In this document: positions 7,876 through 20,757 of the stretch, in pieces
Layout of the letters: each line of letters begins with the position of its first letter
Position numbering within the stretch: the first letter of the stretch is position 1
IMG/VR virus record: IMGVR_UViG_3300008107_001304
Location: 1-20,856 of that record
Source of the DNA: a virus
Strand: one strand, 5' to 3'
DNA: 20,856 nt
The notes under the pieces: generated by a model
The model's input: the letters and a program-made list of their open reading frames with translations, nothing else
Databases searched by the model: none
What the model was told of the DNA's origin: nothing
Translations under genes and position numbers: made by a program

Positions 7876-8082
7876 ATGGATTATATCAAAGTTAGTGGGC
7901 ATGATGGTCTCGTGAGGGATGAAAACACAGGCGCCATCTTGAATTTGGACGATTCTGCGATAGAAGCAAGGCGTAAATCAAAACACCTTGGTTCCGCATT
8001 AGAAGACATAAATATGTTGAAGAATGAAATCTCTGAAATCAAGTCCCTACTGCAAGAGTTAATAAAACATGGCAATACTTAG
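7876..8082 (+). CDS. Small conserved phage protein with C-terminal coiled coil
   Basis: This 68-residue protein starts with ATG nine bases after the DUF4815 stop. I see no clear Shine-Dalgarno, so translation is probably coupled to the upstream gene. The N-terminal half has '[16 protein letters not shown]', a motif I recall from small proteins at this place in T4-like cyanophages and relatives. The C-terminal half is a regular coiled coil: I45, L48, I52, I55, L59 and L62 fall in alternating 3-4 spacing, with charged residues between. The last 14 bases overlap the start of the next gene, again suggesting coupling. The size and the coiled coil suggest a structural adaptor or an oligomerisation partner or chaperone for the neighbouring fibers. 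That role is inference; no enzymatic motif is seen. Confidence 0.85.
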
Positions 8083-8530
8083 AAACGTTGCTAGAACAGA
8101 TACCTTTGAGCAACAAAGGGTAAAAATTAATGAAATTGCTTCTGACCTGTTTACGGTTCAGACAAGCGTTGGTGCTGGCGCATTTAGTATGAGTGATGGC
8201 ACTGTTCAAGCGCCAGCGTTATTCTTTACCAATGCTAATGATGTAGGTATTTTCAGAGGTGGTCCAAAATCATTATATATTGCTGCAGAAGGAAAATCTG
8301 TAGCTTCTTTTGATAAGTCATATCTCACATCTTTGCAGAATTTTAGAACTTTGGTTTCTGCAATTCCAACTGGAGATGGTGGAATTACACTAAGTAACGG
8401 AGGTTCATTATATTACGGAGGAACTTTTTCCAGTGTTCCATTAACAGGTGGATCTGGAAATGGAGCAAAAGCTACGCTGGTGGAGATATTGGTCAAAATC
8501 AAACACAAATTTTCACTAATGTTTCACTAA
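8069..8530 (+). CDS. N-terminal piece of the split fiber-like structural protein
   Basis: The ATG at 8069 lies inside the end of the 68-residue gene, with a weak AGAG about 12 bases upstream. The N-terminus '[20 protein letters not shown]' followed by 'NEIASDLF' is a start I recognise from conserved cyanomyovirus structural proteins. Next comes '[20 protein letters not shown]' and the beginning of the glycine-rich repeat region ('[18 protein letters not shown]'). After residue ~135 ('GAKAT') the frame turns into lysine-rich, unrelated-looking sequence and stops at 8528-8530. The last ~19 residues are therefore probably not the native sequence. The N-terminal part is likely the attachment domain of the fiber. 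Confidence 0.7.
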
Positions 8531-8550
8531 CTGGTGGTTTTGGAAATGGA

Positions 8551-9240
8551 ATGAGAGCCGACATTACTGTTGGTGTTGCTGGTCCTGTTACTGCTGTTAC
8601 TGGAGTTAGTATAATCAATCAGGGTTCTGGTTATCAAACTGGAGATGTTCTGAGTGCTGTACCAAACACAATTGGTGGTGTTACTGGATTTCAATATGTA
8701 ATTAATGGTGTTGGTAACGTATCTGCTATTAGTGTTTTGAATGGTGGCAATAACTTATATACAGTAGGAAATACTCTATCCGTAAATAATTCTAGTTTAG
8801 GTGGTAGTGGTTCTGGATTTGTATTTACTATTACTGGCGTAGGTCAAGTAACAAATGCAGTAATTTCGGATGGTGGGGATGGTTACTTAACGAATGATGT
8901 TCTATCAGTAAATAATACCGAATTTGCGGCTACTGATACTTATTATGTTAAGATGTATCTAACTCAATTATTGACATTTAGTGGTACATTACCAACAACA
9001 AATTTTGATGTTGGACAGACATTAACATACAACGGTTTATCAAAAACAATTGTAAAGAAATACACGTCTGGAAGTAATATAGAAGCAGTAATTATTCAGG
9101 TAGATGCCAATAATTTAGATTATAGTCCAGGTCTTAGTGCAACATGTAATGGTTCAACTGCCGCTGTAGCTTCAATACAGACTGCTTTAAATTATTATTT
9201 TACTGAGCCGAATACACCCATTAAGGTTCAGTACGACTAG
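8551..9240 (+). CDS. Middle piece of the split fiber-like protein, glycine-rich beta repeats
   Basis: This is frame 1. Protein-like sequence already begins near 8473 ('[20 protein letters not shown]'), well before the first ATG at 8551, and that ATG has no convincing ribosome binding site. This is therefore better read as an internal segment than as a gene of its own. It holds repeated '[11 protein letters not shown]', '[15 protein letters not shown]' and '[14 protein letters not shown]' units, each about 35-45 residues, a pattern common in phage fiber shafts. The frame ends at TAG 9238-9240, just where frame 2 resumes with the 'TTRDGWH' sequence. Confidence 0.55.
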
Positions 9241-9568
9241 AGACGGATGGCATACTGTTATTAGCGGAGAAGGAGCACAACGAGTTTTTGGTGAAGAATA
9301 TAACGGTCCAGAAGTAAATTATGAGTATGGTGCAAATATTATTTCAATCGTTCCAAGTGATGACACCCCAACAACATTATATTATTATTGCGGAAACGGT
9401 AATGATTTAGCACACCTAGATGAAGGTGGTTATAATAATAGAGAGGCAGTTATCACTATTAGTGGCAGTGATCCAGTAAGTGGTAGTGGTCTACAGATTA
9501 CTGTTGGAACAATCAATACTGCCAGTAATATTGTATTAAACAGAGATGGTTCTGCTACTTTAGGGAGT

Positions 9569-11947
9569 TTGACCTCAGGACCTGGAACTTTTACTGGTGC
9601 GGTGTCAGCAGCATCTCTATCTACAGCAGGTAATTTTTCAGTAAATAATACAAAATTTACTATTGCTTCATCAACTGGTGATACTTATATTGATGGTGGA
9701 TTGACAGTAAATGGAGAATTGGCATTCCTTGGTGATGCTTCTTTAGGATCTACTCTATATGTTGATTCTGTAAATAATAAAGTATCCATCAATAGAGATC
9801 CAGCAGTAACTGCTCTAACATATGATTTGGAGATTGTTGGTAGTTTATATAATGATGGCGACGTTGTTTTAGCAGAGACTGCACTATCGTCAGCAATTAT
9901 TGGAGATGTCGCAAATATTTCTGGTACTCCAAAACTTGGAGTTGATGGAAGCATTTATTCCGATGGTTCTTTCCTAGGAAATCCAACAGGAAACATTAAA
10001 GCTCCTGCATATAGTTTTGATTCGAATACTAGATATGGATTATCATTCAATCCAACAAATTCCACATTATCCATCGCTACTGGTAGCGGAGAAACGGTAA
10101 GGTATGGAGACTTATTAACATCTTTCTATAGAAATATTGATTTTGTAAATACAACTATTACATCAACAACTCTTGTTAATGGTGCTGGATATACAAATGG
10201 TTCTTATTCTGGATTGCAACCAACTGGTGGAACAGGTACTGGATTAACTGTAAATGCTATTGTTGCTTTTAGAGTTAATATACCAACTGCTGGTGCTGGT
10301 TATACACCTGGAACATATGATAATGTGCCACTAACTGGTGGTGATGGAACTGGAGCACAAGCTACTATTGTGATTGGACCTTCTGGTGGAGTAACCGAAG
10401 TTATTGTCACAAATGCTGGTAATGGATTATATGCTGTAGGTAACTCATTAGCGTTTGCATATACTTCTCTCACTACAATTGTTGGTGGATCACCTGTAAC
10501 ATCAACTGTTCCAACAACCGTTGCTTCTCTATCGGTTTCTGTTTTGGGAGCAGTAACTAAGGTAACAATCACTGACAGTGGTGATGGATATGTTACTGGA
10601 GATGAATTGACTGTTACTCCACCAGGAACACCAACAATAGTATCAAAAATAACTATTGGAACTACAACTAATTCTATAACTGCTGGTGTTAATAAATCTA
10701 CTGGAACAATTACAGCTCAATCTATCAATACTCTAGGTTCTGGTATTCTCGTAGATAACAACCTATCTATCGATGGCGTTACAATATCTTCTACACAGAA
10801 TGAAGATATTGTCATTGCTCCTGGTGCTTCATCTAAGATCCTTTCCGTTTCTGGAACTGGTGGTGTAAAACTCCCAGTTGGAAACTCTACTAATAGACCT
10901 TCTGCTTCTACTGCTGGTATTGTTAGATATAACAATCAAACATCACAGTACGAGGGTTCGAATGGTGTAAACTTCATCTCTCTAGGTGGAGTAAGAGACG
11001 TTGATGGAAATACGTATATTATCGCTGAAGAGACTGTAGGTGCTAATGACAATATCTTATACTTCTTTAACGATAATTATAACTCAGCAAGATTAAACAG
11101 AACAGAGTTAGAACTAACAACTGCCAACAAAATTTCTTCTAAAGATACGGATGGCAAGTTTGCATGGAAGGCAAATACAGCATATCTTCTAAATGCATAT
11201 GTTTATTATGGCGATAACATTTATAAGGTAACCACTGCTGGTATAACTTCAACACAAGCACCAACACACACATCTGGATCAGTTACCGATGGAACTGCAG
11301 TTCTTGAATATTACAGCGATGCATATGCAAATCTTGAGATAAGAGCAGATGAAGTAAAGATTGGAATTAGATTAAACGTAAATGACAAACTTGCTTTATA
11401 TTCATATAACACAAGTAATCTAATTTTTGAAAATCAAGTTGATAATTTCCAGTTTGCGTTTGGAAATATTATTGGAGTACCAGATACTTTCCTAACATTA
11501 GATACTGCTGGCACTCTAAAGATCAACAGAAATTATGATACATCTGGTCCAACAGATAATCAAATTATTTTAGACAAAACACTCAAGTATATTGAATTGG
11601 ATGATGTTATTTTATCAACTGCAGATTCAACTTTAGTAAAAGGAATTACTAACACAGGTGCTGCAATTGTTTATAACTCAACCACGCATAAAGGAGCTAA
11701 AGTTGTTGCAGTTGCTGATAATATCACAACTGGTGATAGACATATTGTTGAATACAATGTCATTCACAAAAACTCAAATATATATGTTAATGAATATGGC
11801 AATTTAGATACTGGAACAGAGCAGTTCTCAGCAGCATTTGATTTTGATGGATCTGGTAATGTTAGAGTAACTTATACAGTATCTGACGCCGTTGCCTCTG
11901 GTAACAATATTGTGATCACTACTACCAAAACTCAAATCAAGAAGTAA
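9569..11947 (+). CDS. C-terminal piece of the split fiber-like structural protein
   Basis: Frame 2 is open from 9191, and its sequence looks native from about 9230 on ('[20 protein letters not shown]', '[15 protein letters not shown]'). The TTG at 9569 is only the first start-like codon and lies inside coding sequence. Features in order: a strand-rich shaft; beta repeats at 10174-10630 ('[11 protein letters not shown]', '[20 protein letters not shown]', '[12 protein letters not shown]'); and a conserved block with '[13 protein letters not shown]' and '[20 protein letters not shown]'. A W-x-A-N-T-x-Y module follows at 11165-11316. The C-terminus, '[19 protein letters not shown]' ending in 'TKTQIKK', matches what I recall for cyanomyovirus structural proteins. 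The likely role is a fiber or baseplate-appendage protein. Confidence 0.75.
11165..11316 (+). repeat. W-x-A-N-T-x-Y module, copy 1 (in the split fiber-like protein)
   Basis: The module starts '[20 protein letters not shown]' and continues '[17 protein letters not shown]' and 'DGTAVLEYY', about 50 residues. Related copies occur in the giant fiber at 13094-13251 and 14039-14191. It is a small beta module widespread in phage fibers, possibly glycan-binding (inference). Confidence 0.7.
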
Positions 11948-12508: not shown

Positions 12509-15500
12509 ATGAGTTTAGAATTTAATGCTGATAAGCAGATAATCAAATCAACAAATCCTCGTATTATTGGTAGTGGAGACTTTACTATTAGATCAGGCAG
12601 TGGTTCTGATGAAAAGGAAGTCTTTAGGGTTCAACTAGATAATACCACAAAACTTCCCCGTATTGGTGTCAATAGAACTGGGGAAAAAATTGAGAAAATT
12701 TTAATCAATCAGGGTTTTAATGGAAGTGGATATACCACACAACCATCTGTATTAATTGATCCACCAAGTCTTCCTGGTGGTATTCAGGCACAAGCTTCTG
12801 CTATTATTTCAGCTGGATCGGTAGTTGCTATTATTGTTGATAACGTTGGTTCTGGTTATACTTCTGCTCCTTCCGTAACTATTACTGGAGGTAATGGTAA
12901 TGGAGCAGCTGCTACAGCGTATCTTGATACTGTAGATTATGAACTAGATGTTAATGGTGCTATTCGTACATCTACTTCTATTATTTCTGATACTGCAAGA
13001 ATTTTAAACCTTGATATCGATAACTTTGTAACCGCTGATGCTAAGTTTCGTGCTCCTTCATTAAAGACTTACGCAAATAATACTGGCACTTTATGGGCCT
13101 CATCAACATCCGTAAGTATCAATTCAACTTTATATTTTGGTAATAACATTTACCAAGCATTAAATACTGGTCTGAGTGGAAGTGTGCCACCAACTCATTC
13201 AGATGGCATAGTTTCAAATGGTACAGTAAGTCTCAAGCATATTGGTTATAGAGTATCAAGTCCTCTACTTAAAGGATATAATGAGGATATGAGTTATCCT
13301 CGTTCAATTACTCCACCTTTTGGAGATGATTCCGATAAAATCGCTACCACAGAATACGTTTTAAACCTTGCTACAAATGACGTTGGTGGTCGTGTTTATG
13401 TTTCTGCTGAGATTGGTAACGATTCAAATAATGGCAGATCTGCTGCTGCTCCTGTAAGAACAATCAAGAGAGCATGTCAGATTGCTTCCCAGACAAAAGG
13501 AATTAAAGAAACGGTTGTTGTTTCTGGTGGTGAATATGTAGAAGATAACCCAATTTCCATTCCAGCAGATTGTTCAGTTGTTGGTGACTCACTTCGTATT
13601 GTTATTGTTCGTCCGAACAATCCGAACAAACACATGTTCAAGTTTGCGGACAAGAACTATATTTCTGGTTTGACATTTAGAGATAAGATTGATAGTAATG
13701 GAGATCCTATTGCTACTTGGAAATATGCTTGTGTATTTGACGACAAGCAAAGAATTTATTATGATCCAGCGTCTGGTGGAGATTTCAAGAGAAGTTTTCC
13801 AATCGGACATCAGATTTTTGGACCAGCAAAAATTAGAGTTACTTTCCAAACAAACACAGGTGGTACAGCAATTGCTGAAAACGAATATGTAACTGGTGTT
13901 AACACTGGAGCAGTTGGTTTAGTTACGGCAAGAACATTTACATCTGGAACTGTAAGTGGAACTGTTGATGTTAGAGTTCTAAGTGGTTCTTTCCAAACTG
14001 GTGAAACATTTACATATCCTGGTGATGGTGCAAGATCTTGGCAAGCAAATACTGTTTATACTTTAAACACTATTATCTACAATGCCAATAATGTTTATTC
14101 AGTAACTACTGCAGGTACTTCTGGTTCAACTTCACCAACTCATACAACTGGAGCAGAGGCTAACGGAACTGCTACTTTAACTTGGATCCGCAACGTATAT
14201 AACTTAATTGCTGTTCAAGTTGAATCAATTAGAGCGGAAGGTGAAGTTGTAGATCATATTACAGATTTAACTACCACACTACCAATTACAAGAGTAGATG
14301 GATCACTACAAGCAGATCCAGCAACTGGTGGTATTGTTTTATATACCAATCCATTAGTTGGAAGAAACAATTTTCATAACTTTAAAGAAAATCAAGAAAT
14401 TGAAATTTCTGGGTTACCAACATCTACCCCAGATCTTTCATCTCTAAATGGTAAGCAAAGAGTTTTCAAAATTATTCGTGATGCGGATGGAAGATCCAGA
14501 CGTATTGTTCTATACAAACAACTAGCAGCATTTACAGATGTCAACTATATTCCAGTAAATGCCAGTGTAAAATCAGCAAATAACTATATTACACTATCGC
14601 TACTAAACTCTCCAAACAAGTTTCCACTGCCAAACTTTGTTTTAAGACGTTATCAGGATGCTTGTAATCTAATCAGAAATAATATTGACTTCATTAAAGA
14701 TGAAGCATATTTACAAATACAAGATGAGTTTAGCCCCAACTTCTCAATCACTTCAATTCAAACAACATCTGGTACTGGTGGTGATGCTGGATATGTAATT
14801 TTTAGAGTTACAACAACTGGCAATCATGGTTTCTATCTTAATGATACGGTTTCCATTTTCAAAAATGGTTTAAACAATAATATTAACGGAACATTTACTG
14901 TAACTAATAGAGTAAGTGCAACAGCATTTGAAGTAAAATGGTTGGGTGTTATTGGAACACTTGGTTTAACTTCAGGAACAATTTACACCACATCATCAAC
15001 TCCAGCTCTATCTGCGAGTGCTTACGTTCAAAGATCATTTAGTGTACCAAACGAAGCAAAGTGCCGTAGAGATATTGGACACGTGGTAAATGCCATCATC
15101 ATGGATCTTGAGTATGGTGGAAACTATAATGTTATTGAAGCTGCTAAAACTTATGTAACTGGTACTCAGATTGGATACGTTAGCAACGAAATTGCCGAAA
15201 CAGTTAGATCAGTTGAGATTGTACGCCAACTTTGTATTCTTGCGATGCGTCGTTGGAGAACTGGAAATGGACAAATAGCAGATCCTCTGTACACTCCAGT
15301 TTACTCTAATGTAGCACGTTATTTTGATACATCAGTAGTACAGGATACATCAAGTCCAGCATGTAATGATGTTGCTTCTGCAATCACAACGCTTGCTTAC
15401 GTTTATACAGATACATTATCAAATAATGCAACTGGAACTCAATTAGATGCAGGATATTTAATTTCCAGAAACGCAGACTTTATTGCTTCAGAAGCACTTG

Positions 15501-18500
15501 GATATGCCAAGGCACTTTATCCTGCGCTTGGATTAACTACAGATCAAGAAAGAAAGTGCAAGAGAGATATTAGATATGTTCTTGCTGGATTAAGAAGAGA
15601 CCTTATCTTAGGTGGCAATGCTGGTATTGTAACCGCTGCAGAATCATATTTTACTGGAACAGAACTTACTGGCATTCCTTCTGCTGAGTTAACAGCAACT
15701 CGTTACGCATTCACTAAAGTCAAAGAGCTAGCACAACTAGCGATGCGTAATTGGAAAACGGGTGCTAATGGAACTGGAGCAACATACACACCAACTTACG
15801 AAACATCAATTTCATTATTTACAGATGCAACAATTCTGGTAGATCCAGCAACTTCAAAGTGTGCTGGTATTCTCAGCGCAATTGATACTGAGATGACACT
15901 ATTGGATGGTATCCTTGCTGGAACTACAGTTGCAGGAACTACCACAAAAACATATGGCACCCTATATTCCCCAACGATTACATATCCAGATGGTGCTTTA
16001 TATGATGCTGACAATAAGTATATTACTCCACGAGGAGTATGGGATGATCTGCCAGCAATTGAAGCATCGCCATATATTCAAAACGCTTCAGTTATCTCAT
16101 TCTTAGGTGGTGGTGGTTGTGAAATTGATGGAGATAAGGTAACTCAACCAAACTCACCATTTGCAGGATTAGAACTTAATGGTGCAGCATCTTATCCAAA
16201 CCAGGGCAAATCCATGGTTGCTGCTCAGTTCACCATTGTTTCGTTTGGTGGAACAGGATACAGAGTAGTCAACGATGGTTACTGCCAGTTGGTTTCCGTA
16301 TTCGTTCTATTCTGTGCTGATGGTGTTTATGCTGATAGTGGCGGTTATGCTTCGGTTACCAACGCTGCTACCAACTTCGGTATCTATGCTCTAAGAGCTC
16401 GTGGATATAGAAAAGATCCATACACATTTGATATTGGAACCATTACTAATATCACCACATCTGTTACAGGAAAAACAGAAATTACTGTTAGTGGATTAGG
16501 TAGAAGACCATTTGAACATTACGTTGTTAAGGTTGATGGTTATACTAACACAAACACTAACATTGAATACTTTGTCGAATCTGTAAGAAACGTAACTGTT
16601 GGTCCTCCTTTCACAGCAACAATTGTTCTAAATGAAGGAACAGATTTCACGAAGATATCTACAGGAACTCCAGTAGGCAATTCGAATGGAGAGTTTGTTG
16701 GTAAGACAATTAAACTACACAGACCTTCGATTGTTAACTCATCTGGTCACACTTGGGAATTTGCTGGATCTGGCACAAACTACAATGCTCTACCAGAAAA
16801 CGGTGGTATTAAGATTGAAGCATACGAACAGGTTTCGGAAAACTATGGTCGTGTTTATACCTCTGGTACTGATGAACTTGGAGACTTCAAAGTAGGTTAC
16901 TTTGCTCGTATTGAAAACAGAACTGGTGCTATTACCTTCACAGGTACTGTTACCATCTCGGAAGTTGAATTCCTAAAACTAAAAGGTGGTGACGTTGTTG
17001 TTACTGGTTTCGATGCTTCTAATACTCTTGGTGGTGCTTTTGCTACTGACTCCAAACTACCCACGCAGAAGGCAGTTAAGGATTATATCTCGAATAATCT
17101 TGGACCATACATCAACAAGCCATATTCCACTAATGCCGTCCCTAGGGCGCTTGTAGAACTCACAGACAGCGGTAAGATCTCTATTGACCAGATCCCTGCA
17201 CTAAGACCTTTCAACGTCTTCACAGTGGCAAATCAGGCGGCTCGTCTTGCGTTAGAGGGAGCACTTGCTGGTGACATTGCTATTCAATCCGATACAACTA
17301 CATCATATATTCTCAATAATGACCTAACCAGTTTGTATCTTGGTTTCCCAGTAGATACTGCTTTAGTATTCAATACTGGAAATATCTTTACTGGTTCTGG
17401 ATCAGGTGGTCAAATTCAAGCAACAGAATACAGACAAGGTGTTGTCTGGAAGATTAACATTACCAATCCTGGTTCTGGTTATACTGTTGCACCAAATATT
17501 GTTATCTCTGGTGGCAATCCTCAAGGTGGTGCAGTATCAGCAACTGCTACTTGTACGATTGCTAACGGTCAAGTTGTTTCTGTAACAATCACGGAAAACA
17601 ATGGTTATATTGGTGGTACAGGATACACAACACAACCATCAGTTATCTTCACTGGTCCTGGTGGTGCTGGTATTACTGCTACTGCTTCTGCTCTGATTGA
17701 AAATAGATTGTATGGTGATATCGTCAACAACATCAAGATTGTTGACACAGATACAGTTACTTCAAATAATACTCCAACTGGAACTGTTGTTGATATCTCA
17801 AGAGTTGTCAATACTTCATCGAAGATAAATGGCAACTGGGTATCTCTATCATCCAACCAAATCTCAGCCGATGCGATTACTTCTGGTGTTATTGCTACGA
17901 CCCGTCTGGCACAAAACTCATCAGAAGCAAACTCATTTACTTTCCTTAGAGGCGACCAAGCTTATGCACCAGTCCTCCAATCACTAAAAGGAACTGAAAC
18001 AAGATACTTTGCCAAGTTGAATAATGCTGTTTCCTCTGGATCAAGCACATTCGTATTCACAACAAACGCAAATGTTCTCAAGGGTCATGGAATTGTCAGT
18101 GACGTTACTGGCATCCCATCAGGAACATTAGTTAATTCTGTTGTAACTGCTGCTGGATTTACCACGGTTCAATTGAATAACCCAGTAACAGCAAACATTT
18201 CTGCTGCTACAATTATCCAGTTTACACGTCCAGCATCACCACTAATTATCGATGCTGCTTATACAGTAGGAAACTTTGTTGATAGTGTTGTTATTGCTAA
18301 TGGTGGCAGTGGATTTACAAATGGTTCTTACTTCGACGTTTCATTGTCGGGCGGAACTGGAACTGGTCTGAAAGCTAACATCATTGTTTCTGGTAATGCA
18401 GTAACTACAATTACCGTAACGAATGGTGGTGTCAATTACAATGCTGACTTTAGTGTTACTTCAGCACCATCTATTATTGGTTCTGGATCTGGTCTAGTTC

Positions 18501-19951
18501 TTCTAGCAAAAACAGCTACGACTAATAAGAATTATGCTAATGCTGCAGTTGATATCAGGAGAGTTGATGATCTAACTATCTCTGCTGACCCATATGGAAC
18601 AGCAGGTATTTGCCGTTTCCAAAAGTCACAGTTTACTCTAGGTGCTGCTGGCAACGGATCAGTAACACTCAAGACTGGTGCTGATAGTGGATTGGATGCT
18701 GACTTGCTTGATGGCGCACAAGGCGCTTATTACTTGAATGCTAGCAATCTAAATGCTGGTACTCTGTCAGTTGATCGTCTTGCTGGAACATATAACATCT
18801 CCATCTCGGGTCAGTCTGGTAACACACTACGTCTGATTACCTCTACAAATAACCCAACATCTTCACCTTCCCCAAGCGCATTTGCTGAGGGTATTATTGC
18901 TGATACTAGAAACAATACTTCAGATAGTTTGGAAGATGGTGGAACCAGACACCTCGTTCTCACACTAAGGAATGGATCGTCTGGTTTCGATGCTACTTTT
19001 GGTGGCGTAAGGCAACTTGCCTTCACTGACAACAACAATATGTGGCTTCGTGGTTCTGGAACTGGAGTTACCACATTTGGTTCCTGGGCTAAAGTCTGGA
19101 CCGATCTAAATGATGGTTCTGGAACTGGTTTGGACGCTGACAAACTTGATGGTCGCCAAGGAGCATTCTACCAAAATGCTTATAATATAAACGCTGGCAC
19201 TATTAGTGATAATCGCTTACCATCATACGCTACTCAAAAGAGTTTCAATAATAGCGTAAAAGTTCTAACAACGACCAATAATCCTTATTATGACATTTAC
19301 GTTACTGGTTTTGTATTGACAGCATCTCCATTCCTTGCTGGTCAGAACGTAAACCTATATGATGTCAACTCACAAGGAACTGGAACAATCCTCATCACCA
19401 ATGTAATTACATATAATGATGCTGATGATATGATGGATTATAGCATCATTACTGGTGTTCTAACTACTGGTACATTTAATGGTGCTCAGACAATTGGTAC
19501 TGCATCAAACAGAGTTGCTTTCCAAGACTATAGCCTAAACTCAAGTGGAACCTTTGAAACGGCATCACTTGTCAGCAGTACTGGAACTGCTCTACTAAAA
19601 CTTGGTAGGAAGGATGGCACTGCATCATCCCCTGCTATCTACTTCAGCAGCAGCTCTTCAGCAGCATCCAACTATAACGTTGCTCTTGTTGCTTCTGGTG
19701 GTAGCAATACTGATGGAAGTGGTAACCTCAACATTGTTGCTGGTAATGCAAGTGCAGTAACGATCAACAACAACGCTATCTGGAACGCTGGTAACCTAAC
19801 TCCAGCAACCAACAACGTTGCGAATACCGTTGTTCTCCGTGATGCTTCTGGTAACTTCGCTGCTGGCACAATCACCGCTAGCGTTACTGGTGCTGCTTCT
19901 CTCAACGTATTGAAAGCAGGCGATACGATGACGCCTTTAACAGTGGTCTAG
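12509..19951 (+). CDS. Giant modular tail fiber protein, main body (2480 residues)
   Basis: Modules in order: N-terminal attachment region (residues 1-60); GSGYT-type beta repeats (about 66-140); two W-x-x-N/S-T modules (about 196-248 and 511-561); a pectin-lyase-like beta-helix start ('GGRVYVSAEIGNDSNNGRS', about 293-395); two tandem helical repeats (about 717-1140); a second conserved beta-helix block (about 1172-1310, 'SMVAAQFTIVSFGGTGYRVV'); 'TDELGDFKVGYFARI' and 'SKLPTQKAVKDYISNN' (about 1455-1531); 'DSGKISIDQIPALRPFNVF' (about 1553-1571); more GSGYT repeats (about 1654-1733 and 1930-1990); and two 'LDADxLDGxQG' repeats. A pyocin-knob-like 'MWLRGSGTGVTTFGSWAKVW' sits between the LDG repeats, and the final linker is 'LNVLKAGDTMT'. 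The combination is that of a cyanomyovirus long fiber contacting the host surface. It is expected late in infection, from the promoter motif 40 bases upstream. Confidence 0.88.
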   Translation: MSLEFNADKQIIKSTNPRIIGSGDFTIRSGSGSDEKEVFRVQLDNTTKLPRIGVNRTGEKIEKILINQGFNGSGYTTQPSVLIDPPSLPGGIQAQASAIISAGSVVAIIVDNVGSGYTSAPSVTITGGNGNGAAATAYLDTVDYELDVNGAIRTSTSIISDTARILNLDIDNFVTADAKFRAPSLKTYANNTGTLWASSTSVSINSTLYFGNNIYQALNTGLSGSVPPTHSDGIVSNGTVSLKHIGYRVSSPLLKGYNEDMSYPRSITPPFGDDSDKIATTEYVLNLATNDVGGRVYVSAEIGNDSNNGRSAAAPVRTIKRACQIASQTKGIKETVVVSGGEYVEDNPISIPADCSVVGDSLRIVIVRPNNPNKHMFKFADKNYISGLTFRDKIDSNGDPIATWKYACVFDDKQRIYYDPASGGDFKRSFPIGHQIFGPAKIRVTFQTNTGGTAIAENEYVTGVNTGAVGLVTARTFTSGTVSGTVDVRVLSGSFQTGETFTYPGDGARSWQANTVYTLNTIIYNANNVYSVTTAGTSGSTSPTHTTGAEANGTATLTWIRNVYNLIAVQVESIRAEGEVVDHITDLTTTLPITRVDGSLQADPATGGIVLYTNPLVGRNNFHNFKENQEIEISGLPTSTPDLSSLNGKQRVFKIIRDADGRSRRIVLYKQLAAFTDVNYIPVNASVKSANNYITLSLLNSPNKFPLPNFVLRRYQDACNLIRNNIDFIKDEAYLQIQDEFSPNFSITSIQTTSGTGGDAGYVIFRVTTTGNHGFYLNDTVSIFKNGLNNNINGTFTVTNRVSATAFEVKWLGVIGTLGLTSGTIYTTSSTPALSASAYVQRSFSVPNEAKCRRDIGHVVNAIIMDLEYGGNYNVIEAAKTYVTGTQIGYVSNEIAETVRSVEIVRQLCILAMRRWRTGNGQIADPLYTPVYSNVARYFDTSVVQDTSSPACNDVASAITTLAYVYTDTLSNNATGTQLDAGYLISRNADFIASEALGYAKALYPALGLTTDQERKCKRDIRYVLAGLRRDLILGGNAGIVTAAESYFTGTELTGIPSAELTATRYAFTKVKELAQLAMRNWKTGANGTGATYTPTYETSISLFTDATILVDPATSKCAGILSAIDTEMTLLDGILAGTTVAGTTTKTYGTLYSPTITYPDGALYDADNKYITPRGVWDDLPAIEASPYIQNASVISFLGGGGCEIDGDKVTQPNSPFAGLELNGAASYPNQGKSMVAAQFTIVSFGGTGYRVVNDGYCQLVSVFVLFCADGVYADSGGYASVTNAATNFGIYALRARGYRKDPYTFDIGTITNITTSVTGKTEITVSGLGRRPFEHYVVKVDGYTNTNTNIEYFVESVRNVTVGPPFTATIVLNEGTDFTKISTGTPVGNSNGEFVGKTIKLHRPSIVNSSGHTWEFAGSGTNYNALPENGGIKIEAYEQVSENYGRVYTSGTDELGDFKVGYFARIENRTGAITFTGTVTISEVEFLKLKGGDVVVTGFDASNTLGGAFATDSKLPTQKAVKDYISNNLGPYINKPYSTNAVPRALVELTDSGKISIDQIPALRPFNVFTVANQAARLALEGALAGDIAIQSDTTTSYILNNDLTSLYLGFPVDTALVFNTGNIFTGSGSGGQIQATEYRQGVVWKINITNPGSGYTVAPNIVISGGNPQGGAVSATATCTIANGQVVSVTITENNGYIGGTGYTTQPSVIFTGPGGAGITATASALIENRLYGDIVNNIKIVDTDTVTSNNTPTGTVVDISRVVNTSSKINGNWVSLSSNQISADAITSGVIATTRLAQNSSEANSFTFLRGDQAYAPVLQSLKGTETRYFAKLNNAVSSGSSTFVFTTNANVLKGHGIVSDVTGIPSGTLVNSVVTAAGFTTVQLNNPVTANISAATIIQFTRPASPLIIDAAYTVGNFVDSVVIANGGSGFTNGSYFDVSLSGGTGTGLKANIIVSGNAVTTITVTNGGVNYNADFSVTSAPSIIGSGSGLVLLAKTATTNKNYANAAVDIRRVDDLTISADPYGTAGICRFQKSQFTLGAAGNGSVTLKTGADSGLDADLLDGAQGAYYLNASNLNAGTLSVDRLAGTYNISISGQSGNTLRLITSTNNPTSSPSPSAFAEGIIADTRNNTSDSLEDGGTRHLVLTLRNGSSGFDATFGGVRQLAFTDNNNMWLRGSGTGVTTFGSWAKVWTDLNDGSGTGLDADKLDGRQGAFYQNAYNINAGTISDNRLPSYATQKSFNNSVKVLTTTNNPYYDIYVTGFVLTASPFLAGQNVNLYDVNSQGTGTILITNVITYNDADDMMDYSIITGVLTTGTFNGAQTIGTASNRVAFQDYSLNSSGTFETASLVSSTGTALLKLGRKDGTASSPAIYFSSSSSAASNYNVALVASGGSNTDGSGNLNIVAGNASAVTINNNAIWNAGNLTPATNNVANTVVLRDASGNFAAGTITASVTGAASLNVLKAGDTMTPLTVV
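13094..13251 (+). repeat. W-x-x-x-T module, copy 2 (giant fiber)
   Basis: The copy reads 'WASSTSVSINSTLYFGNNIY', then 'TGLSGSVPPTHSDG' and 'NGTVSLKHIGY'. It is the most diverged of the three copies but keeps W, NNIY, PTH and NGT in register. Confidence 0.6.
14039..14191 (+). repeat. W-x-A-N-T-x-Y module, copy 3 (giant fiber)
   Basis: The copy reads 'WQANTVYTLNTIIYNANNVY', then 'VTTAGTSGSTSPTHTTG' and 'NGTATLTWI'. It is closer to copy 1, in the other gene, than to copy 2 in the same protein. Confidence 0.7.
14657..15925 (+). repeat. Two tandem helical repeats in the giant fiber
   Basis: Repeat A (about 14657-15437) and repeat B (about 15458-15925) share the order 'LIRNNIDFIKDEA' / 'LISRNADFIASEA', 'KCRRDIGHVV' / 'KCKRDIRYVL', 'LEYGGNYNVIEAAKTYVTGT' / 'LILGGNAGIVTAAESYFTGT', 'LAMRRWRTG' / 'LAMRNWKTG', and 'ACNDVASAI' / 'KCAGILSAI'. 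Repeat A has an extra beta-rich stretch of about 100 residues (about 14743-15037) between its first two elements. Confidence 0.8.
17461..17710 (+). repeat. GSGYT-type beta repeats in the giant fiber
   Basis: Two adjacent units read 'NPGSGYTVAPNIVISGGNPQ' and 'GGTGYTTQPSVIFTGPGGAG', each followed by an alanine/threonine-rich strand. Similar units occur at 12703-12930, at 18290-18490, in the split gene at 8386-8930 and 10174-10630, and once or twice in the DUF4815 protein near 5590-5790. Confidence 0.7.
18692..18781 (+). repeat. LDADxLDGxQG fiber repeat, copy 1
   Basis: This is a 30-codon unit beginning 'LDADLLDGAQGAYY' and ending 'NAGTLSVDRL'. Copy 2 is the same length and matches at 21 of 30 residues. 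This motif is common near the distal end of T4-like marine phage fibers. Confidence 0.8.
19130..19219 (+). repeat. LDADxLDGxQG fiber repeat, copy 2
   Basis: This is a 30-codon unit beginning 'LDADKLDGRQGAFY' and ending 'NAGTISDNRL'. It follows copy 1 after a spacer of about 350 bases that holds the pyocin-knob-like 'GSWAKVW' segment. Confidence 0.8.
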
Positions 19952-20130
19952 GCATTAGCGAGACTGGCGGAAATGGAGCAAGATTAACAATTACTTCATC
20001 TTCTGCTGGATCTATTCTAAATGTTGTTGATAACTCAGCACTTATTTTCCAAACAGATAGTGGTGTAGAGCAAGGTAGATTTAGAAATAATGCTGCTGGA
20101 GGCGGATTATTAGTCAATACTGCTCTTCGT

Positions 20131-20757
20131 TTGGTAAATGGTAATATTACACAGGCACAAACTGGAACAACTGCTATTGATAATAGCTTTACTTCAGGTA
20201 GTAATCCACAAGCATGGAGAATGATTATTCCAGATAATGCCAATACTTCTGGTTTTGGAGTTGGAGCAAATAATCTTGGAATTTATTATAATGGATTATC
20301 GGATTACCACGCTAAGTTTGTAACTGGAGCAAATAATGTATTTTTCCCTGGAAGAGTTTGGGTTGGTAATAGCAATCAAGCAGCTACAACCAGTTATCAA
20401 CTTCAAGTAACTGGTTCTTTTGCCGCTACATCTAAGTCATTCCGTATTCCTCACCCAACCAAAGAGAACCATGACCTCGTTTATGGTTCGTTGGAAGGAC
20501 CAGAGCACGGCGTATATGTTCGTGGTAAGTCATCTGGTGTCGTTGAGTTACCTGATTACTGGGGTGCTCTTGTTGATGAAAACACCATCACCGTTCAACT
20601 CACCCCAATCGGCAATCATATGTCATGGGTTGAGAAGATTGAAGATAACAAGATCCTTATTGGTGGAGGTGAAGCATTCTACTTCGTTCAGGCGATGCGT
20701 AAGGATATTGAGAAGTTAGAGGTTGAAGTTGAGTTACCTGTCGAGGAGGAAGAGTGA
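20131..20757 (+). CDS. C-terminal tip of the giant tail fiber, out of frame with the body
   Basis: Native-looking sequence starts near 19937, and TTG 20131 is merely the first start-like codon. The first half (to about 20420) is a variable, AT-rich tip region ('NNAAGGGLLVNTALRL', 'NLGIYYNGLSDYHAKFV'). The second half is a conserved fiber C-terminus: 'SKSFRIPHPTKENHDLVYG', 'SLEGPEHGVYVRGK', 'LPDYWGALVDENTITVQLTP', and a final Glu-rich 'ELPVEEEE'. I recall this C-terminal domain on many marine phage fibers, where it probably caps or trimerises the tip. It lacks the catalytic features of S74 chaperone domains, as far as I can see. If translated at all here, it would need a frameshift or internal start. 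Confidence 0.7.
   Translation: MVNGNITQAQTGTTAIDNSFTSGSNPQAWRMIIPDNANTSGFGVGANNLGIYYNGLSDYHAKFVTGANNVFFPGRVWVGNSNQAATTSYQLQVTGSFAATSKSFRIPHPTKENHDLVYGSLEGPEHGVYVRGKSSGVVELPDYWGALVDENTITVQLTPIGNHMSWVEKIEDNKILIGGGEAFYFVQAMRKDIEKLEVEVELPVEEEE
20744..20749 (+). promoter_or_regulatory. Strong Shine-Dalgarno (AGGAGG) of the LamG-like gene
   Basis: AGGAGG ends seven bases before the ATG at 20757. It is the best ribosome binding site in the window and is embedded in the Glu codons (GAG GAG GAA GAG) that end the fiber gene. The same bases code the acidic C-terminus and drive initiation of the next gene. Confidence 0.8.

Follow-up and report, generated by a model that had tools for sequence, protein, structure and literature searches.

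The long tail fibers of PHROG 5342 in T4-like cyanophages, which include those of S-MbCM7 (ACG-2014h), ACG-2014j and S-RSM4, have a long body that ends in LNVLKAGDTMTG and is followed by a variable C-terminal part. In the isolates S-MbCM7 and ACG-2014j, which are the two records that we opened and the ones to which the assignment to Kyanoviridae refers, a single CDS runs through this linker. The arrangement resembles the domain shuffling of receptor-binding proteins, in which a near-identical N-terminal part is joined to exchanged C-terminal modules (PMC10684548). A third kind of precedent concerns broken genes: many apparent pseudogenes in assemblies have been ascribed to assembly error, and near-identical genomes can then differ in which genes are broken (PMC11017572).

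The locus that we describe here is like each of these in part. The window (the whole stretch that we analyzed, 20,856 bases of an IMG/VR virus record) is a 20.9-kb fragment of a T4-like cyanophage and codes for long structural proteins. In the phage collection, its relatives are without exception cyanophages, whether of Synechococcus, Prochlorococcus, or another kind. Unlike in the two isolates, the fiber gene of the window is broken at the linker. Unlike in the shuffled receptor-binding proteins, its variable part is enclosed on both sides, by the linker and by a C-terminal domain of about 106 residues that hardly varies. And while the spurious pseudogenes were described in microbial genome assemblies, ours is a phage contig, which we judged from the contig sequence.

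A fiber gene broken at its linker

Both halves of the fiber body match the PHROG 5342 profile with E = 0 (the best stretches are profile positions 1-512 and 1943-2928 of 3319). The body reads ...LNVLKAGDTMTPLTVV-stop at its C-terminus, with the stop codon at 19949-19951, and the tip, which reads FNSGLGISETGG... from 19936, is open in the -1 frame relative to the body through 20757. The first ATG, GTG or TTG listed in the tip frame is at 20131. The single open frame through the linker to the C-terminus that characterizes PHROG 5342 is absent from the window. A sequence-only reading of this DNA had reported a frame break at the AGDTMT linker and had counted it as the third in the contig. Both statements hold: two earlier breaks, in the region 8069-11947, leave the other fiber gene as three ORFs.

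Features of the two fiber genes in the window
Feature	Position	Strand	Basis
First frame break (D1), 157 nt of the sister contig absent	8475..8476	+	Sister alignment; missing segment conserved in 5 relatives
Second frame break (D2), 92 nt of the sister contig absent	9213..9214	+	Sister alignment; missing segment conserved in 5 relatives
Tail fiber body ORF	12509..19951	+	ORF list; PHROG 5342 "tail fiber protein"; truncated past AGDTMT, stop 19949-19951
Conserved linker stretch encoding GAASLNVLKAGDTMT (first two bases of the last codon included)	19889..19932	+	Per-20-nt comparison; conservation profile of 59 loci; mismatch search of 8 records
Junction at which 16 nt of the sister contig are absent, frameshift	19932..19933	+	Sister alignment; linker in open frame in 80/80 relatives
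Out-of-frame rest of the fiber gene	19936..20757	+	Translation; relatives; PHROG 28536/17490 matched by C-terminal part
Variable tip	19936 to about 20393	+	Translation and relatives
Conserved C-terminal domain	about 20394-20757	+	Relatives; PHROG 28536/17490 (unknown function)

Three deletions relative to a sister contig

We compared the window to a sister contig, IMGVR_UViG_3300044675_004081 (43,604 nt), which ends at window position 20240. The sister is colinear with window positions 1-20240 (20,240 nt) at 99.4-99.9% identity, with 52 SNPs. There are exactly three gaps between the two, and each of them consists of bases that are absent from the window. None of the gap sizes (157, 92, and 16 nt) is divisible by three, so each shifts the frame. 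These three gaps explain all three frame breaks, and the corresponding frames are open in the sister: its first fiber has 1377 codons, and its second fiber has 2587 codons up to the contig end, of which 112 run from GDTMTG onward. Over these 20.2 kb there are no one-base or in-frame indels between the two contigs, and the lack of one-base indels rules out uncorrected homopolymer errors from long reads.

The SNPs are clustered, with 9 in 380 nt (9815-10192) and about 22 in 2.6 kb (17098-19717). Long identical stretches separate these clusters, which is a pattern as left by recombination between close strains. D1 and D2 both fall within one SNP-free stretch, more than 1,800 nt long, of the alignment with the sister.

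Body and tip form one open frame in the sister, and all aligned bases from 19934 to 20240 are identical, so on this comparison the frame break at the linker is more than chance ORF noise. By the same alignment, the break is a 16-nt deletion specific to the window contig, and apart from this deletion the fiber gene is to all appearances normal and continuous. The sequence-only reading was right that a small deletion broke the gene, but it had expected a loss of 7 or 10 bases between TTTAAC-like repeats. There is no repeat at the ends of the 16-nt gap and no microhomology. As all three junctions in the window are blunt and lack microhomology, we rejected deletion between short repeats.

Two lines of evidence indicate that it is the window that lost sequence: five relatives carry the segments that the window lacks at D1 and D2, and at the linker the two isolates and all of the other relatives are unbroken. 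Specifically, at the 80 linker loci that were found with the body as the query, GDTM[TS]G is followed by the same frame in every case (80/80), which ends at a natural stop in 74 and at the contig end in 6. Conversely, an exact search for the three window junctions in 2.9 million viral contigs, from which entries of the same genome as the window, or of a very close one, may be excluded, gave 0 matches.

These comparisons bear on whether the ribosome could join body and tip by a programmed -1 frameshift or a translational bypass. The two frames do overlap by about 70 nt (19882-19951), and a -1 slip within this overlap would join them. Nevertheless, no X_XXY_YYZ heptamer is present in the body frame across 19882-19951, such a shift is unneeded in the sister and in the relatives (0/80 homologs are broken), and the other two breaks of the contig are likewise plain deletions. 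We give programmed shifting practically no weight. A break shared by many homologs at a conserved slippery site, which the sequence-only reading had set against its own explanation, is not what these loci show.

The linker as a boundary between body and tip

Where relatives have different tips, their similarity stops at 19932 in a comparison per 20 nt, and the 16-nt gap falls exactly where this shared linker stretch ends. The loci L020 and L021 have 98% amino acid identity over the last 120 residues of the body and 99% over the C-terminal 106 residues, but only 29% in the tip. L018 and L084 show the reverse pattern: their body DNA is mostly alike at about 6 of 20 positions, which is barely above chance, while the linker is alike at 19-20 of 20 positions and the start of the tip at 16-18 of 20. 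In both pairs, body and tip have differing histories with a sharp boundary between them, as expected for a modular fiber.

The most conserved block across 59 dereplicated loci is formed by the GDTMTG codons (mean identity of 0.90 over the first 12 nt); 36 nt past the start of the linker, identity is down to about 0.42. Third codon positions in the linker are also elevated (0.72 versus 0.50 in the body). Allowing up to 3 mismatches, we found the linker stretch as a single copy in 6 of 8 records and did not find it in the other two. We therefore rejected the idea that the linker is a within-genome repeat, as the window has a single copy and no record has more. This implies that tip exchange would run between genomes and not within one.

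Judging from these alignments, the AGDTMTG linker is a real boundary for tip exchange, as the sequence-only reading had proposed when it suggested comparing relatives for alternative tips after the same linker. Modularity of tip and body at such a linker is of an already known kind; our literature search for the GDTMTG motif itself found no paper.

The tip is bounded by conserved sequence on its other side as well: among the relatives compared (L002-L016), identity is 87-99% over the last 106 residues of the fiber and mostly about 30-55% in the tips. The tip did not match any family in Pfam. Its only matches in a phmmer search of the PDB were SAKe proteins, which are designed (best E = 9.4e-7); we discounted them as uninformative.

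We also noticed that in 4 of the 80 relatives (L018, L022, L054, and L065) the contig ends within 340 nt past the match to the body, compared to an expectation of 1.25. On the other side, 2 contigs end, and the excess is statistically weak. Perhaps alternative tips break assemblies at this point.

An imprecise exchange could in principle account for the break, if the crossover at the linker that brought the tip also lost 16 nt. Tip exchange at the linker does occur between relatives, but the sister combines an intact linker with the same body and with a tip whose first 307 nt are identical, which implies that the tip was joined before the 16 nt were lost. We consider a faulty acquisition very improbable. 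Only slightly better, and still improbable, is the broader proposal that the linker is physically a deletion-prone hotspot for recombination, so that exchange yields fiber-broken genomes at an appreciable frequency and one of them was caught here.

Origin of the deletions

We propose that the break is an artefact of assembly or of the sequencing library, and that the 16-nt deletion is confined to the window contig (probability of roughly two in three). In this case the deletion would have arisen in library preparation or in metagenome assembly and not in the living phage. As expected for an artefact, the break is absent from a near-identical and independent sequence, since the sister is intact. 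The true variation between the two contigs appears to be strongly constrained, as 45 of the differing codons are synonymous and 4 change the amino acid, with no one-base or in-frame indel. In contrast, all three deletions ignore the frame, and this contrast, seen in the alignment, favours a technical origin.

The second-ranked explanation is that the deletions are real and that the window represents a recent dead or minor variant, in which illegitimate deletion inactivated both fiber genes of the molecule that was sequenced, possibly by slipped replication or by imprecise recombination at the tip-exchange linker. The ends are clean and blunt and the flanks match; the linker is a genuine exchange boundary; and about 0.5% of random placements of three deletions touch the linker, although the overlap was spotted after the fact. 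On the other hand, three frame-breaking losses in two fiber genes would presumably kill the phage or harm it severely, yet the genome would have to have been abundant enough for a 20-kb assembly. Three independent knock-outs in one abundant genome would be hard to square with a propagating phage. The predominance of synonymous SNPs also implies that selection was still acting on both genes a very short time ago, and none of the three junctions recurs in other contigs. Overall, we view real deletions as rather unlikely.

The location of the break, which the sequence-only reading had thought not to be random, can be read in two ways. The small chance of touching the linker agrees with that view. 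However, D1 and D2 are not at any GDTMTG linker, and two more deletions of the same sort away from any linker make the deletions look like a property of the contig, which means that the overlap of one of them with the linker may have no biological cause. Because alternative tips diverge exactly at the end of the linker, an assembler would probably meet a branch point there. The weak point of a technical origin is that repeat collapse does not usually leave blunt junctions that lack overlap. Also, a de Bruijn assembler normally requires at least one read that spans a junction. Nevertheless, an assembly or library artefact is the most likely origin of the deletion, with a recent dead or minor variant next.

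Most likely, the frame break thus does not belong to the phage itself, and the fragmented fiber genes in the window contig should be annotated neither as separate genes nor as frameshifted or phase-variable fibers. As a by-product, the comparison describes the tip cassette of these cyanophages as a variable module with the conserved GDTMTG linker on one side and, on the other, a C-terminal domain that is nearly invariant.
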